From Marivirga sericea (lineage in GTDB: Bacteria; Bacteroidota; Bacteroidia; Cytophagales; Cyclobacteriaceae), in the NCBI RefSeq assembly GCF_900177665.1, contig NZ_FXAW01000004.1:186001-250000 (forward strand): 64,000 bases of DNA. Direction: 5' to 3'. The position numbers and the translations under genes were made by a program. The notes beneath the pieces were generated by a model that saw only the letters and a list, made by a program, of their open reading frames with translations, had not been told where the DNA came from and searched no databases. Every line of letters starts with the position of its first letter. Positions within the stretch are counted from its first letter, which is position 1. This document shows, piece by piece, positions 51,364-56,086 of this stretch.

Positions 51364-51375
51364 CGAAATCAATTA

Positions 51376-51443
51376 AGGGGTGCCTCATAAAAACGGGCTG
51401 AGAACATACCCTGGACCTGATCCTGATAATGCAGGCGTAGGAA
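51376..51443 (+). promoter_or_regulatory. TPP riboswitch 1 (THI box) upstream of pnuT
   Basis: Conserved THI-box segments are present: GGGGTGCC (51377 on), GGGCTGAGA, then ACCTGATCCTGATAATGCAG and GCGTAGGAA. Only 15 nt separate the aptamer from the pnuT start, leaving no room for a terminator, so TPP probably blocks translation initiation. Confidence 0.95.
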
Positions 51444-51458
51444 TTAATAATATCGCAA

Positions 51459-52064
51459 ATGGACATTTTAAATGAATTGTATGAAGGCCTTCTCAACATG
51501 GGTTGGCTCGAAGGGCTAGGTGTATTTTTCGGAATCTTGTACATCTATTTTGCTGCCAAAGAGATGATTTGGTGCTGGTATGCAAGCTTGGTCAGTGTGA
51601 GTATATATCTTATAATCTGCTACCAAGTACAGCTCTACGCAGAAATGGGTTTAAATGTGTACTATTTAGGAACTACTGTTTACGGCTGGTGGCATTGGCG
51701 AAACCCTAATAGAAAAGAAAAAGAATTAGCAATTTCTAAAATGAAACCGCAAGAACATGGAATATTTATTCTTGCTGGAATACTTTTCACCTTGGGATTA
51801 GGTTATTTTCTTATTGAAAAAACTGATGCTCAACTACCTTATCTGGATTCCTTTACTACAGTTTTCAGTATTTTAACAACGCTATTGGTCACCCGTAAGG
51901 TTCTGGAAAATTGGCTTTACTGGATCATTATAGATGCAGTGGCAGTCTATATATATTTTCAAAGAGAATTATATTTAACTTCCCTCCTAATGGCTGCTTA
52001 TGTCATTATATCCGCAATTGGCTATTTTAATTGGCGTAAACTTTACCAAACCAAATATGCATGA
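51459..52064 (+). CDS. pnuT: PnuT-like thiamin transporter (PnuC family)
   Basis: Inner-membrane facilitator of the PnuC family, 201 residues, about six to seven helices. VYGWWHWRN (about 75-83) and ENWLYWIIIDAVAVYIYF (about 153-170) are PnuC-family vitamin-binding motifs. The TPP riboswitch directly upstream points to thiamin rather than nicotinamide riboside as substrate, which is the established PnuT assignment in Bacteroidota. PnuC-type carriers do not concentrate by themselves; they need phosphorylation of the imported vitamin. The next gene overlaps by 4 bp (ATGA) and encodes a NadR-like kinase that could supply this. Confidence 0.9.
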   Translation: MDILNELYEGLLNMGWLEGLGVFFGILYIYFAAKEMIWCWYASLVSVSIYLIICYQVQLYAEMGLNVYYLGTTVYGWWHWRNPNRKEKELAISKMKPQEHGIFILAGILFTLGLGYFLIEKTDAQLPYLDSFTTVFSILTTLLVTRKVLENWLYWIIIDAVAVYIYFQRELYLTSLLMAAYVIISAIGYFNWRKLYQTKYA

Positions 52065-52564
52065 AGAAAATTGCTGTTATAGGGCCTGAAAGTACAGGGA
52101 AAAGTACATTGACAAAGGATTTAGCTCATTACTTTAATGAACCTTTCGTAGCAGAATATGGTCGAACTTATCTGGAAGAAAATGGTAGTTTTTATGTTGA
52201 ATCTGATTTGTTAAATATCAGTAAAGGAATGCTTGAAATAGAGCAAACACAAGCAAAAAATGCGAATCGATTTTTGTTTTGTGACACCGATCTAATCATG
52301 ATGAAAGTTTGGTATGAGGTGAAATATGGGACTTGTCATCCATGGGTATTAGGTCAATTAAGGTCTAATCCTTACGATTTTCATTTGCTATGTGCACCCG
52401 ACTTACCATGGGAAGCAGATCCATTGAGAGAAAATCCAACTACACGAGTAGAACTTTTTGAACACTATCAAAATGAATTAATTGATTACCAATGTGCTTA
52501 CAGTGTAATTTCGGGGACAAACGACAGACTACAAAAGGCAATAGAAGTGCTTGAAAAAATTTAG
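52061..52564 (+). CDS. NadR-like ATPase/kinase, candidate thiamin kinase
   Basis: P-loop protein of 167 residues: Walker A GPESTGKST (8-16), EYGRTYLEE (about 36-44) and FCDTDLIMMKVW (Walker B-like). It resembles the ribosylnicotinamide kinase domain of NadR without an adenylyltransferase domain. It is translationally coupled to pnuT by a 4-bp overlap and shares its TPP riboswitch. In NadR/PnuC systems the kinase traps imported vitamin by phosphorylation, so here the vitamin would be thiamin. The role is inferred from family and context; no thiamin pyrophosphokinase or ThiN domain is visible. Confidence 0.75.
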   Translation: MKKIAVIGPESTGKSTLTKDLAHYFNEPFVAEYGRTYLEENGSFYVESDLLNISKGMLEIEQTQAKNANRFLFCDTDLIMMKVWYEVKYGTCHPWVLGQLRSNPYDFHLLCAPDLPWEADPLRENPTTRVELFEHYQNELIDYQCAYSVISGTNDRLQKAIEVLEKI

Positions 52565-52577
52565 TTTCGGGAAAATA

Positions 52578-52609
52578 TTTGCATTCCCCATATTTCCAAC
52601 TTATACTTG
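52578..52609 (+). promoter_or_regulatory. Promoter upstream of the second TPP riboswitch
   Basis: TTTG (52578-52581), 20 bp, TATACTTG (52602-52609): near-consensus Bacteroidota -33/-7 promoter, 12 bp before the aptamer. Confidence 0.65.
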
Positions 52610-52620
52610 CAGCGTCAATG

Positions 52621-52689
52621 AGGGGTGCCTTAATATAACGGGCTGAGAGTATACCCTTGACCTGATCTCGGTAATTCGAGCGTAGGAAT
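52621..52689 (+). promoter_or_regulatory. TPP riboswitch 2 upstream of the NMT1/THI5-like gene
   Basis: AGGGGTGCC, GGGCTGAGA, ACCTGATCTCGGTAATTCG and GCGTAGGAAT follow THI-box order. The start codon lies 22 nt downstream with no terminator between, again indicating translational control. Confidence 0.95.
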
Positions 52690-52711
52690 TTTGAATATAA
52701 ATTAATACAAA

Positions 52712-53632
52712 ATGGAATTAGTTAAACTAGCATTGGATTGGACTCCGAATACCAATCATACTGGCTTTTTTGTAGCTCAAGCAAAAGGATTTTATGATAA
52801 ACTAGGTGTAAAAGTAGAAATCAGATCACCAGAAGTAGACAATTACGAAAAAACTCCAGCTAAATTAGTTGAGGAAAAGTGGGTTGAATTAGGGATTGCT
52901 CCATCAGAATCAGTTATCACTTATCAAACATTAGACAGTAAGCCGAATTTAACCGCAGTAGCAGCTATCTTACAAAAAGATGCCAGTGCAATTGTCAGCT
53001 TAGCAAATGGAAAGATTCAAAGCATTAAAGACTTGGACGGAAAAATTTATGCATCTTACAATGCACGCTTTGAAGACCATATTGTAGAAGCAATGATCAA
53101 GAAAGGTGGAGGAAATGGAGAATTTACTAAAAGCAATCCGGATAAATTAGGAATTTGGGACACCTTGCTGGAAGGCAAAGCTGATGCTACATGGGTTTTT
53201 ATGCCATGGGAAGGAATCTTAGCAAAAAGAGCTGGAATCATATTAAATGATTTTCGATTAAATGACTACTCCATTCCGTATGGATATTCTCCTATTCTTC
53301 TAGCTCATCCTGAAGTTTTAGAAAGCAAAGGTGATGCTATTTCCAAATTCCTAAAAGCATCTGCCAAAGGATTCTTGTTTGCTAAGGACCATCCCGAAGA
53401 TGCAATAAAAATACTGGCTGCCTCGGGCACGCAAGAAGAATTAAAAGATGAGAAGTTTTTGCTAGAAAGTCAGGAATCAATAAACCATTACTACACTTCA
53501 GAAAATGGTAAATGGGGCTTAATGGAAGATCAAAGATGGGAGACTTTTACTAATTGGTTAAAATCTGAAAACTTACTAAATAAAGAAACTTTATCGGATC
53601 ACAAATCATTGTATACCAATAAGTTCTTATAA
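52712..53632 (+). CDS. NMT1/THI5-family protein under TPP control
   Basis: Periplasmic-binding-protein-fold family of 306 residues whose members bind thiamin precursors or, in fungi, make HMP-P. The N terminus MELVKLALDWTPNTNHTGFF lacks any signal peptide, and the riboswitch 22 nt upstream prevents a longer start. The yeast Thi5 CCCFC iron motif and the active-site Lys/His pair are missing (the matching region reads ELGIAPSESVITY), so it should not be an HMP synthase. No ABC permease or ATPase gene is present in the window. It is probably a cytosolic vitamin-related binding protein of unknown action; an ABC transporter partner elsewhere is possible. Confidence 0.82.
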   Translation: MELVKLALDWTPNTNHTGFFVAQAKGFYDKLGVKVEIRSPEVDNYEKTPAKLVEEKWVELGIAPSESVITYQTLDSKPNLTAVAAILQKDASAIVSLANGKIQSIKDLDGKIYASYNARFEDHIVEAMIKKGGGNGEFTKSNPDKLGIWDTLLEGKADATWVFMPWEGILAKRAGIILNDFRLNDYSIPYGYSPILLAHPEVLESKGDAISKFLKASAKGFLFAKDHPEDAIKILAASGTQEELKDEKFLLESQESINHYYTSENGKWGLMEDQRWETFTNWLKSENLLNKETLSDHKSLYTNKFL

Positions 53633-53651
53633 AAATATTACTCTTTTGAGT

Positions 53652-53725
53652 AGGGGTGCCTTAATACAACGGGCTGAGATCATACCCAATGAACCTGATA
53701 CCGGTAATGCGATCGCAGGGATTTT
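53652..53725 (+). promoter_or_regulatory. TPP riboswitch 3 upstream of the TonB-dependent receptor
   Basis: AGGGGTGCC, GGGCTGAGA, GAACCTGATACCGGTAATG and GCAGGGA are present; the 3' strand carries an extra CGATCG before GCAGGGA. It begins 20 nt after the THI5-like stop with no good promoter between, so it is internal to the upstream transcript and gives the receptor gene a second layer of TPP control. Confidence 0.93.
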
Positions 53726-53741
53726 GGTTAAGGAAAATGAA

Positions 53742-53762
53742 GGAGGTAATTACCCCACCTCC
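53742..53762 (+). promoter_or_regulatory. Hairpin in the leader of the TonB receptor gene
   Basis: GGAGGT (53742-53747) pairs with ACCTCC (53757-53762), 17 nt after riboswitch 3. The first arm is also a purine-rich sequence resembling a ribosome-binding site. No T-run follows, so it may be an expression platform or accessibility switch rather than a terminator. Confidence 0.4.
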
Positions 53763-53794
53763 ACAAGTTTCACAAACAAATTTATATATTTTAA

Positions 53795-56086
53795 ATGTTA
53801 CACATTTTACAAAGATCGCTAATCATATTAGCGACAGTGCTTTTATCATTTACTACTTATGCTCAGAATTCGATTAACGGAATTGTTAAATCCAAGTATG
53901 ATGATGAAGCCTTAGTAGGTGCAAATGTAGTATTATTGCCCCTTTCAAAAGGAAGTACCACAAATGTTAGCGGTCAATTCACTCTTGATAACATCCCAAA
54001 TGGTGAATATCAAATCAAGGTAAGCTATGTAGGTTTTAAAACTGAAGAACGCTCCATAACCTTGACTGAAGATCGGTCATTTTTCTTTTTTCTGGAGAAA
54101 GATAAGCTAATTGGAGAAGAAGTGGTGGTCAGCGCCATTCGAGCAGATAAACTTGCTCCCATTACACAGACGACCTTGACTGACCAAGAAATTAAATCCG
54201 TATTCAATGGGCAAGATGGGGCATTTGTATTGGAGCAATTAACCCCTTCTATTCAAGTGAATTCAGATGCTGGAACGCGATTTACTAATTATGGAAGTAT
54301 GCGCTTAAGGGGCATCGATCAGGGAAGAATTAATATAACATTAAATGGAGTTCCCCTAAATGACATGATCGATCAGGGTGTGTTCTTTTCAAATTTTACG
54401 GATATTACACGAAGTATGGAAAGTGTGCAAGTTCAGAGAGGAGTTGGAACGAGCACAAATGGAACTGCTTCCTATGCGGGATCAATCGGATATGAATCAG
54501 AAGATATCAATACAGAAAATCCTGAAGCTACCGTAACTTTATTAGGTGGATCATTTAATACCTGGCAAGGCACCGCTGAGGTAAAAACTGGAATGATGGA
54601 AAATAATACTGCTTTTTATACTCGATTAAGCAGAACTTATAGCGATGGCTACAGAGATCATTCAGGTTCTGATGCCTACTCTTTCTTTTTTAGCGGAGGA
54701 TGGTTTGGAGAAAAGGACATCATCAAAATCAACGGATTTAACGGAAGAACTAAAAATGATTTAGCCTATTCACCAGTTCCAGAATCCTTGATAGAAGAAG
54801 ATCCAAGGACCAATGTCAACAATCCTAACGATATCGATGATTTCGGGCAGTCATTATTACAATTAGAGCACACTCACTTTTTCAATGAGAATTCGACTTT
54901 AACTTCATCAGCTTATTACGGTGCTGCAGGTGGAGACTTCCCGTTTACTTATAATGTTGATAGCGTAACTTTAGCTAGTATAAATTACCCCCTGTTTAAT
55001 GATCACTACGGTGTAATGAGCTACTTTAACCAAAAGTACACTGATATAGAATGGACTACTGGAGTACATGCTTATCGCTTTAATAGAGAAAACATTGAAC
55101 AAATGGTGCCGAACTTCGACAATCCTTATTATCAAGATCAGTCAATAAAAGATGAAATCAGTGGATTTGCAAAAGCTACCTACAGGATTGGTGATTTCAG
55201 CATTTTAGGAGATATACAAGCTAGATTTGTAACGCTTGATATGATTCCGGACACAGACTTCTTAGGTGCAGACCGTTCAATTCCAACATACGACTGGACC
55301 TTTATAAATCCAAAAATTGGAGTAACCTATGAGATTACTCCTTCGCTTAACGCTTATGCCTCTTATGGACGTTCTGGTAGAGAGCCCACAAGAAGTAATT
55401 ATTTAGGAGATACACAGATCAACCTAGGAAATATTGACAGTTTGCAAAACCAAAACCTCGTACAACCGGAATATGTAAATGATTTCGAAACGGGAGTAAG
55501 ATTCAATACAAAAAAAGCCAAAGTCAACTTTAATGCTTTCTATATGGATTTTGAGAATGAGATCGCTCCCATAGGTGAGTTCATCCCCCAATATTTTATA
55601 CAGCTTTATGAGAACCAAGAGGCGTCTTTTAGACGAGGAATTGAGCTAGATTGGCAATTAGCACTTGTTGAGAAATTACAAATCAGAGGTAATGCTACTT
55701 ATATGCAAAGTATCATTAGCGAATATAGTCCTGAGGGAAGTAATGAGGTATTTAAAGACATTAAAACACCTTATAGCCCTGAGTACTTTGCTAATATTAC
55801 TTTACAATATCAAGCTTTTGAAAACTTTGGAGCCAGTATTCATACGCGATTTGTTGGGAAAAGCTATACAACATTAACCAACGATGAAAATTTTGTATTA
55901 CCTAGCTATTCAGTAACAAATGTGCAGTTGTTCTCAAATATTGGTCAGCATTACAGAGTTGAATTGGATATCAATAATATTTTAAGTGAGCAGTACTATA
56001 CAGATGGCGGTCCTGTTGGAAACGAAATGGGGTACTTTGTACAAGCACCAGCCCATTTCTATGCTACCTTTATTGCAAAATTTTAA
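53795..56086 (+). CDS. TonB-dependent receptor, probable thiamin/thiamin-precursor receptor
   Basis: Outer-membrane receptor of 763 residues. Signal peptide (about 1-22, TTYAQ); carboxypeptidase-regulatory-like domain (about 25-110, LVGANVVLLPLSKGSTTNVS); plug (about 115-230, SMRLRGIDQGRINITLNGVP and VQVQRGVG); 22-strand barrel ending in the aromatic HFYATFIAKF. The TPP riboswitch directly upstream and the PnuT and THI5-like neighbours point to thiamin or a precursor as ligand. It corresponds to the thiamin-regulated outer-membrane receptor described for Bacteroidota (OMR1), a family-level inference. A strong terminator follows. Confidence 0.93.
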   Translation: MLHILQRSLIILATVLLSFTTYAQNSINGIVKSKYDDEALVGANVVLLPLSKGSTTNVSGQFTLDNIPNGEYQIKVSYVGFKTEERSITLTEDRSFFFFLEKDKLIGEEVVVSAIRADKLAPITQTTLTDQEIKSVFNGQDGAFVLEQLTPSIQVNSDAGTRFTNYGSMRLRGIDQGRINITLNGVPLNDMIDQGVFFSNFTDITRSMESVQVQRGVGTSTNGTASYAGSIGYESEDINTENPEATVTLLGGSFNTWQGTAEVKTGMMENNTAFYTRLSRTYSDGYRDHSGSDAYSFFFSGGWFGEKDIIKINGFNGRTKNDLAYSPVPESLIEEDPRTNVNNPNDIDDFGQSLLQLEHTHFFNENSTLTSSAYYGAAGGDFPFTYNVDSVTLASINYPLFNDHYGVMSYFNQKYTDIEWTTGVHAYRFNRENIEQMVPNFDNPYYQDQSIKDEISGFAKATYRIGDFSILGDIQARFVTLDMIPDTDFLGADRSIPTYDWTFINPKIGVTYEITPSLNAYASYGRSGREPTRSNYLGDTQINLGNIDSLQNQNLVQPEYVNDFETGVRFNTKKAKVNFNAFYMDFENEIAPIGEFIPQYFIQLYENQEASFRRGIELDWQLALVEKLQIRGNATYMQSIISEYSPEGSNEVFKDIKTPYSPEYFANITLQYQAFENFGASIHTRFVGKSYTTLTNDENFVLPSYSVTNVQLFSNIGQHYRVELDINNILSEQYYTDGGPVGNEMGYFVQAPAHFYATFIAKF

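Follow-up and report, generated by a model that had tools for sequence, protein, structure and literature searches.

A standalone NadR-type kinase encoded with PnuT under a TPP riboswitch in Marivirga sericea is a predicted thiamin kinase of Bacteroidota

Introduction

In many Bacteroidota, the enzyme that traps imported vitamin B1 and activates it has been missing; the kinase described here is most likely that enzyme. It is encoded in a stretch of 64,000 nucleotides of the genome of Marivirga sericea (contig NZ_FXAW01000004.1, positions 186,001 to 250,000), hereafter called the window. There are strong grounds in its sequence and genomic context for the view that this standalone kinase of the AAA_28 family phosphorylates imported thiamin to ThMP with ATP, trapping it for ThiL, and its assignment as a non-orthologous thiamin kinase is a well-supported prediction. 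The proposed pathway would comprise five steps: (i) a TonB-dependent receptor would carry thiamin over the outer membrane; (ii) PnuT would allow its diffusion across the inner membrane; (iii) the 167-aa kinase would phosphorylate it with ATP and thereby trap it as ThMP; (iv) ThiL, encoded elsewhere in the genome, would add the second phosphate to give TPP; and (v) TPP would shut all three riboswitch-led transcription units, thus closing the loop.

Several known systems resemble this one in part. ThiK (YcfN), reportedly identified in a 2004 paper, is the thiamin kinase of Escherichia coli; it needs ThiL afterwards and has a fold of the aminoglycoside phosphotransferase or choline kinase type. 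The same reaction, again followed by ThiL, is predicted for the window kinase, but the fold differs: the only Pfam family that matches the window kinase at E 0.001 is AAA_28, and the thiK model is absent among its NCBIfam matches. Thiamin pyrophosphokinase (TPK), for its part, makes TPP in one step. NadR (TIGR01526; PDB 1lw7, 8x7f, 9x6f) has the same P-loop, E..R, DT and W..D..R motifs as the window kinase and, like it, is often found beside a PnuC-family carrier and sometimes a TonB receptor; in contrast to NadR, the window kinase has no NMNAT domain, falls in a separate group of the tree, lies under a TPP riboswitch and differs at positions 37, 57, 117 and 126. In passages of PMC5613172, a pnuT-tnr3 pair is described from Bacteroides thetaiotaomicron, and pnuT-tnr3 and a TonB receptor are placed under TPP riboswitches in gut Bacteroidetes. 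Going by those passages, the tnr3 TPK (PF04263) of Bacteroides resembles the window kinase in being paired with PnuT under TPP control, but it belongs to an unrelated family (PF04263 has no match in the window kinase) and is found in genomes without ThiL over the cut-off. The available part of PMC6593275 names ThiK, ThiM and ThiN as signature B1 salvage enzymes, and no NadR-type one. Likewise, the titles, abstracts and passages searched hold no description of a NadR-type thiamin kinase, and an earlier prediction is possible.

If the proposal is right, it (i) supplies a missing step of B1 salvage for much of the phylum Bacteroidota (79 of the 118 genomes surveyed in the order); (ii) corrects the NadR label of these proteins; (iii) explains the use of ThiL without ThiE or a pyrophosphokinase; and (iv) changes predictions of which Bacteroidota depend on the thiamin of their neighbours.

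Organization of the locus

Three successive units, each headed by its own TPP riboswitch aptamer, occupy positions 51366-56086 of the window (Table 1). Gene order and aptamers are read directly from the DNA, and all three aptamers exceed the gathering score of RF00059 (54.3). As the preliminary description had stated, the pnuT-kinase pair lies under a TPP riboswitch, whose Rfam match is directly 5' of pnuT and reaches the pnuT start codon with its 3' end, and the two genes overlap by 4 bp, sharing the ATGA at 52061-52064 that includes the kinase start. The second and third aptamers end 6 and 56 bases, respectively, before the start codons that follow them. Given that the aptamers end near start codons, the three riboswitch-led units are probably controlled at translation initiation. 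In the whole genome, an Rfam search in which 150 of 175 first-look candidates were scored returned these three TPP aptamers and no others.

Table 1. Features of the thiamin locus, in window coordinates
Feature	Position	Strand	Evidence
TPP riboswitch aptamer, pnuT leader	51366..51461	+	Rfam RF00059, 59.6 bits, E 3.6e-9
pnuT, PnuC-family carrier, predicted thiamin carrier	51459..52064	+	PF04973, 194.3 bits, E 2.2e-57
Standalone NadR-type P-loop kinase, predicted thiamin kinase (thiamin -> ThMP), 167 aa	52061..52564	+	PF13521, 110.9 bits
Walker A loop GPESTGKS, kinase residues 8-15	52082..52105	+	Translation
Second TPP riboswitch aptamer, NMT1/THI5-like gene leader	52611..52705	+	RF00059, 60.7 bits, E 2e-9
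NMT1/THI5-like protein, 306 aa	52712..53632	+	PF09084, 154 bits
Third TPP riboswitch aptamer, TonB receptor leader	53642..53738	+	RF00059, 56.3 bits, E 2.4e-8
TonB-dependent receptor, predicted outer-membrane thiamin receptor	53795..56086	+	PF00593 + PF07715

The carrier encoded by pnuT is a clear PF04973 member and the only PF04973 match of the genome. In the carrier tree, it falls outside the main PnuC clade, which unites 10 NadR-linked carriers with that of locus L155 (support 99); its own place, beside one long-branched NadR-linked carrier, is weakly supported, and the carrier tree agrees with the split among the kinases only in part. At carrier position 66, the window pnuT has Asn; this position is Gln in 94% of 17 PnuC-type rows and, among PnuT-like rows, Asn in 55% and Gln in 41%, in such a way that only weak markers separate PnuT from PnuC. 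The thiamin specificity of PnuT is inferred from context, namely TPP control and a position outside the main PnuC clade. Regarding the TonB receptor, its predicted role is based on homologues that come after TPP aptamers beside related kinases.

The NMT1/THI5-like protein has no evident signal peptide, as judged by eye from the translation. No ABC permease gene lies directly beside its gene, and the genome has no detectable ThiE. Near the kinases, tblastn (1e-3 or 1e-5) returned no homologue of this protein at the 100 order, 46 named and 33 phylum loci.

The kinase and its relation to NadR

Domain identity and catalytic motifs agree with the preliminary description of a NadR-kinase-like protein with an intact Walker A (Table 1). 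Against the NadR model of NCBIfam (TIGR01526), the kinase aligns only with the C-terminal kinase part (profile 163-318 of 325), with a score of 105.3 bits that lies below the cut-off of 341. With regard to membership of NadR (TIGR01526 / NF005988), the C-terminal P-loop ribosylnicotinamide-kinase domain is present and the NMN-adenylyltransferase domain is absent from the protein, which totals 167 aa with a kinase match beginning at residue 2. Residues 2-166 align with PDB 1lw7, and of seven sequence matches in solved structures the top four are NadR-type proteins and the other three RecA. The AlphaFold2 model has a pLDDT of 97.0 and a pTM of 0.91.

In 40 aligned sequences, G8, E10, G13 and K14 of the Walker A are invariant. 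In a larger comparison, with 138 standalone relatives (11 standalone kinases of the NadR group left out) and 30 NadR kinases, the P-loop G, E, G and K together with E32, R35, D75, D120 and R123 are invariant to rounding. Among the positions that nearly all standalone kinases share, but NadR does not, are Tyr37 (96% vs 17%), Gln57 (99% vs 53%), Trp117 (100% vs 53%) and Pro126 (86% vs 13%). The window kinase itself has Met at position 57, against Gln in 99% of the 138 relatives, which counts against its reading as a thiamin kinase. The search for substrate-site residues gave candidate positions only; according to a passage of PMC7221760, the Lactococcus structure has no substrate bound in the kinase domain, and no solved structure with a riboside in the kinase site was identified.

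The kinase tree holds 179 rows: 100 order loci, 46 named loci (among the matches listed) and 33 phylum loci, minus one (L171 of genome G079, dropped for its length), plus the window. It comes from a short search with SH-aLRT supports, has no bootstrap and is unrooted. The window kinase is one of 81 standalone kinases that form a group with 100% SH-aLRT, in which there is no NadR. The NadR rows are in another group, of 41 rows (support 89), hereafter the NadR group, which also holds 11 standalone kinases, among them those of G045 and G114, the two order genomes in which a standalone kinase and TPK occur together. The remaining standalone kinases, those of Flavobacteriaceae included, are on the same side as NadR of the branch that sets the 81 rows apart, and outside the group of 41. 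An unrooted tree gives no direction between NadR to kinase and the reverse; hence, from the earlier expression "NadR-derived thiamin kinase", thiamin kinase is retained as a prediction on the basis of gene content and TPP aptamers, and "NadR-derived" is set aside.

Classing NadR by ORF length alone was dropped, as there are long in-frame ORFs without NMNAT fusion (G012, G017, G147 and G248). An NMNAT profile replaced ORF length for calling NadR; it was built from 14 sequences among the 30 scored NadR, for which it is circular, and two of the 30 (L216 and L222) reach only 27 and 30 bits.

Thiamin gene content

Presence or absence of the kinase, TPK, ThiE and ThiL was scored in this genome and 259 others, two surveys taken together. 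The genome of M. sericea has ThiL (327.5 bits), nothing beyond a 22-bit partial match for ThiE and no TPK (PF04263); ThiN is absent from 118 of 118 order genomes, this one included. Its single NadR-like match at E 1e-5 is the window kinase, and a PnuC-NadR type module for nicotinamide riboside, apart from this locus, was not found. In other words, ThiL is present and the other ThMP or TPP sources looked for (ThiE, ThiN and TPK) are missing; among known sources, ThMP could then come only from a thiamin kinase or else from YjbQ, which a passage of PMC5613172 gives as an alternative to ThiE.

In the order (118 genomes), ThiL is over the cut-off in 107 genomes, TPK is present in nine and ThiE is over the cut-off in 43, to which 6 lower-scoring full-length matches of 88-109 bits can be added; a PnuC-family carrier occurs in 96. 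NadR-like matches at E 1e-5 are found in 87 genomes, and the 101 such matches comprise 19 NMNAT-fused and 82 standalone proteins. A kinase counts as thiamin-type if it is standalone and the tree places it outside the NadR group (the standalone kinases of G045, G114 and G027, which lie inside it, were moved out of the count before the statistics). So defined, it is present in 79/118 genomes, one of which (G079) is included although a stop breaks up its match, a caveat that weighs against the count.

Among ThiL genomes, the kinase is found in 55/57 of those without ThiE and TPK, vs 16/45 of those with ThiE or TPK (Fisher 7.7e-12, with genomes that are not independent samples), and in 5/5 of those that lack TPK and whose sole ThiE match is low-scoring. 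Genomes without a full ThiL have it in 3/11 cases; one of these, G095, has the kinase and no detected ThiL, which counts against the proposal. The kinase is present in 0/9 TPK genomes vs 79/109 others. The comparison can also be made inside the 10 families that include genomes of two sorts, those lacking ThiE and TPK and those that have ThiE and lack TPK: the kinase is commoner without ThiE in six, equal in four and rarer in none. Genome-wide gene content independently demands a source of ThMP in the genomes that carry the kinase.

The survey of the phylum covers 148 genomes, 6 of them in common with the order survey, with TPK in 72, ThiL over the cut-off in 111 and ThiE over the cut-off in 55. 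A thiamin-type kinase, standalone or fused to DUF4301, is present in 33/148; 23 first-look candidates were scored per genome in this search, which may have missed kinases, and the standalone kinases of G147 and G248, in the NadR group, are excluded from the positive tallies. In the class of the window (37 genomes), the kinase occurs in 28/28 genomes without TPK vs 5/9 with TPK and, in the phylum, in 21/26 ThiL genomes without ThiE and TPK. Of the 37 phylum genomes without ThiL over the cut-off (at least four of which, G118, G131, G186 and G211, have sub-cut-off ThiL matches of 128-170 bits), none has the kinase among the 23 first-look candidates scored per genome and 35 have TPK, a distribution that points to ThMP as the product.

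Some genomes do not follow the pattern. Six have ThiL with neither thiamin-type kinase nor ThiE nor TPK, which counts against the proposal: (i) G099, from the order, which has no PnuC-family match either; (ii) G116, also from the order, which has a 356-aa NadR-like ORF about 470 bp from a PnuC-family gene; (iii) G130, G151 and G244, of one genus, with an NMNAT-fused NadR beside a PnuC-family gene; and (iv) G210, with a probably cut NadR. In G248, a standalone kinase lies beside a carrier, but in the NadR group and on a long branch. In G130, G151, G244, G210 and G248, some NadR proteins may also act on thiamin, or another source of ThMP may exist. Also counting against the proposal, genus g76 (Flavobacterium-like) has TPK together with a kinase-DUF4301 fusion in 5/6 genomes.

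In four genomes, a low-scoring ThiE-like gene adjoins a low-scoring ThiL-like gene, apart from the main ThiL (G010:C34, G044:C95, G055:C134 and G062:C47).

Gene neighbourhoods and TPP aptamers

In the order, a PnuC-family gene is found on the same strand and no more than 600 bp away for 39/80 standalone kinases (and for 2 more in longer ORFs), and likewise for 9/19 NMNAT-fused NadR; about half of the standalone kinases of the order are not beside such a gene, which counts against the proposal. Pairs of pnuT and kinase also occur, among others listed, in Winogradskyella (L188), Flavobacterium (L196 and L202) and Hymenobacter (L181).

A TPP aptamer is found near 53/149 standalone kinases, window included (named loci among the matches listed), and near 0/30 NMNAT-fused NadR, with search stretches of unequal size (3, 4 or 8 kb per side). 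Stretches of 9.5 kb at the order NadR loci, some cut by contig ends, gave 0/19. Consequently, the kinases do not cluster with pnuC rather than with TPP-regulated genes in the manner which, according to the preliminary description, would speak against a thiamin kinase. By set, aptamers are present at 21/99 order loci, 11/33 phylum loci and 20/46 named loci (the latter among the matches listed, drawn with one P-loop pattern and not an even sample). These figures rely on a TPP model (R1) built from 18 sequences (3 from the window and 15 Rfam hits in relatives) that match by construction; at Rfam's own threshold, 15/100 order loci have an aptamer. Of the pnuT-linked loci without an aptamer in 3 kb, 18/19 still have none in up to 9.5 kb, which also counts against the proposal, and one gained an aptamer.

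In 49 of the 52 non-window loci with an aptamer, this lies downstream on the same strand, usually with a TonB receptor gene next; of the other three, two have it downstream but on the opposite strand, and L215, from a Burkholderiales MAG, has it upstream. Elsewhere, then, the link of the kinase is to a thiamin uptake cluster. An aptamer upstream of the pnuT-kinase genes is seen only in the window and at L215, which counts against the proposal: the kinase operon is clearly under a riboswitch of its own in the window, but rarely so elsewhere.

The kinase had also been described as replacing the TPK gene found next to pnuT in some relatives. This holds insofar as the genome has no TPK and the pair is known from B. 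thetaiotaomicron; it fails for the order, where none of the 9 TPK matches has the PF04973 match of its genome nearby on its contig.

Ten neighbour proteins were checked at nine standalone kinases (eight carrier-less loci and the pnuT-linked L105). One is a TPP-dependent E1 dehydrogenase (L239), one a TonB receptor (L105), and none of the remaining eight is clearly connected with thiamin or NAD. At L239 (1997-4525, G213), the kinase ORF begins a few bases after the gene of the dehydrogenase.

Alternative explanations

The window kinase could instead be a nicotinamide riboside kinase that makes NMN, its place in a thiamin operon being a by-product of the evolution of PnuC-family carriers. The catalytic motifs are common to both, the four best of seven solved-structure matches are of NadR type, and a standalone kinase beside a PnuC-like carrier does exist inside the NadR group (G114, L155). 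Nevertheless, the TPP aptamer sits directly on this operon and none was found near the 30 NMNAT-fused NadR; the window kinase belongs to a separate group with 100% SH-aLRT; an association with ThiL and with the absence of ThiE and TPK is not what a nicotinamide riboside kinase would be expected to show; and the order genomes with both a standalone kinase and TPK (G045 and G114) have that kinase in the NadR group. This explanation is, on balance, unlikely.

The two remaining alternatives keep the protein within thiamin metabolism. That it phosphorylates a thiamin precursor (HMP or hydroxyethylthiazole) and feeds biosynthesis, not salvage, is suggested by the next riboswitch-led gene, an NMT1/THI5-like one of a fold tied to pyrimidine precursors; but the usual steps that join precursors are missing without ThiE or ThiN, and 57 of the 79 kinase-bearing order genomes have no ThiE match even at a lower score, which makes it very improbable. 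Hardly any probability, the least of the three, is given to a pyrophosphokinase that makes TPP directly. The kinase does stand next to pnuT as TPK (tnr3) does in Bacteroides, according to passages of PMC5613172, and G095, with a kinase and no detected ThiL, is an exception to the argument that the kinase needs ThiL; against it stands the distribution in the 37 phylum genomes without ThiL over the cut-off, with the kinase in 0/37 and TPK in 35/37 (23 first-look candidates scored per genome).

Related modules and variant arrangements

Phosphorylation of thiamin to ThMP being the preferred reading, a broader one can be built on it, in which standalone NadR-type kinases, with no relation to either ThiK or TPK, are the main ThMP route of Bacteroidota, Burkholderiales (L215) came to the pairing independently, and DUF4301 acts on the kinase product, adding a further thiamin nucleotide step in Flavobacteriaceae. 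Taken jointly, these claims are improbable.

At L215 (4931-8546), a TPP aptamer is followed by an 855-aa ORF, a PnuC-family carrier and a standalone kinase of the NadR group, an arrangement that is possibly a separate recruitment.

DUF4301 (PF14134) comes after the kinase or is fused to it in many Flavobacteriaceae loci (L188 8529-10082; L196 7962-10076; L225-L229). This domain has a weak match to UDP-glucose pyrophosphorylase (UDPGP).

TonB receptors resembling that of the window lie beside eight NadR loci (L119, L122, L144, L166, L167, L168, L170 and L172), five of which have a PnuC-family gene within 600 bp and none a TPP aptamer. TonB-PnuC-NadR is presumably a parallel module for nicotinamide riboside; if the window kinase does act on thiamin, TonB-PnuC-NadR and TonB-PnuT-kinase would constitute a pair of related modules for studying substrate change.

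Finally, an aldose-1-epimerase-like gene comes after the kinase in Hymenobacter-like genomes and Botryobacter (L075 3556-4446; L174 8538-9413), and at L094 (2038-3471, G012) aldose-epimerase and kinase are in one ORF.
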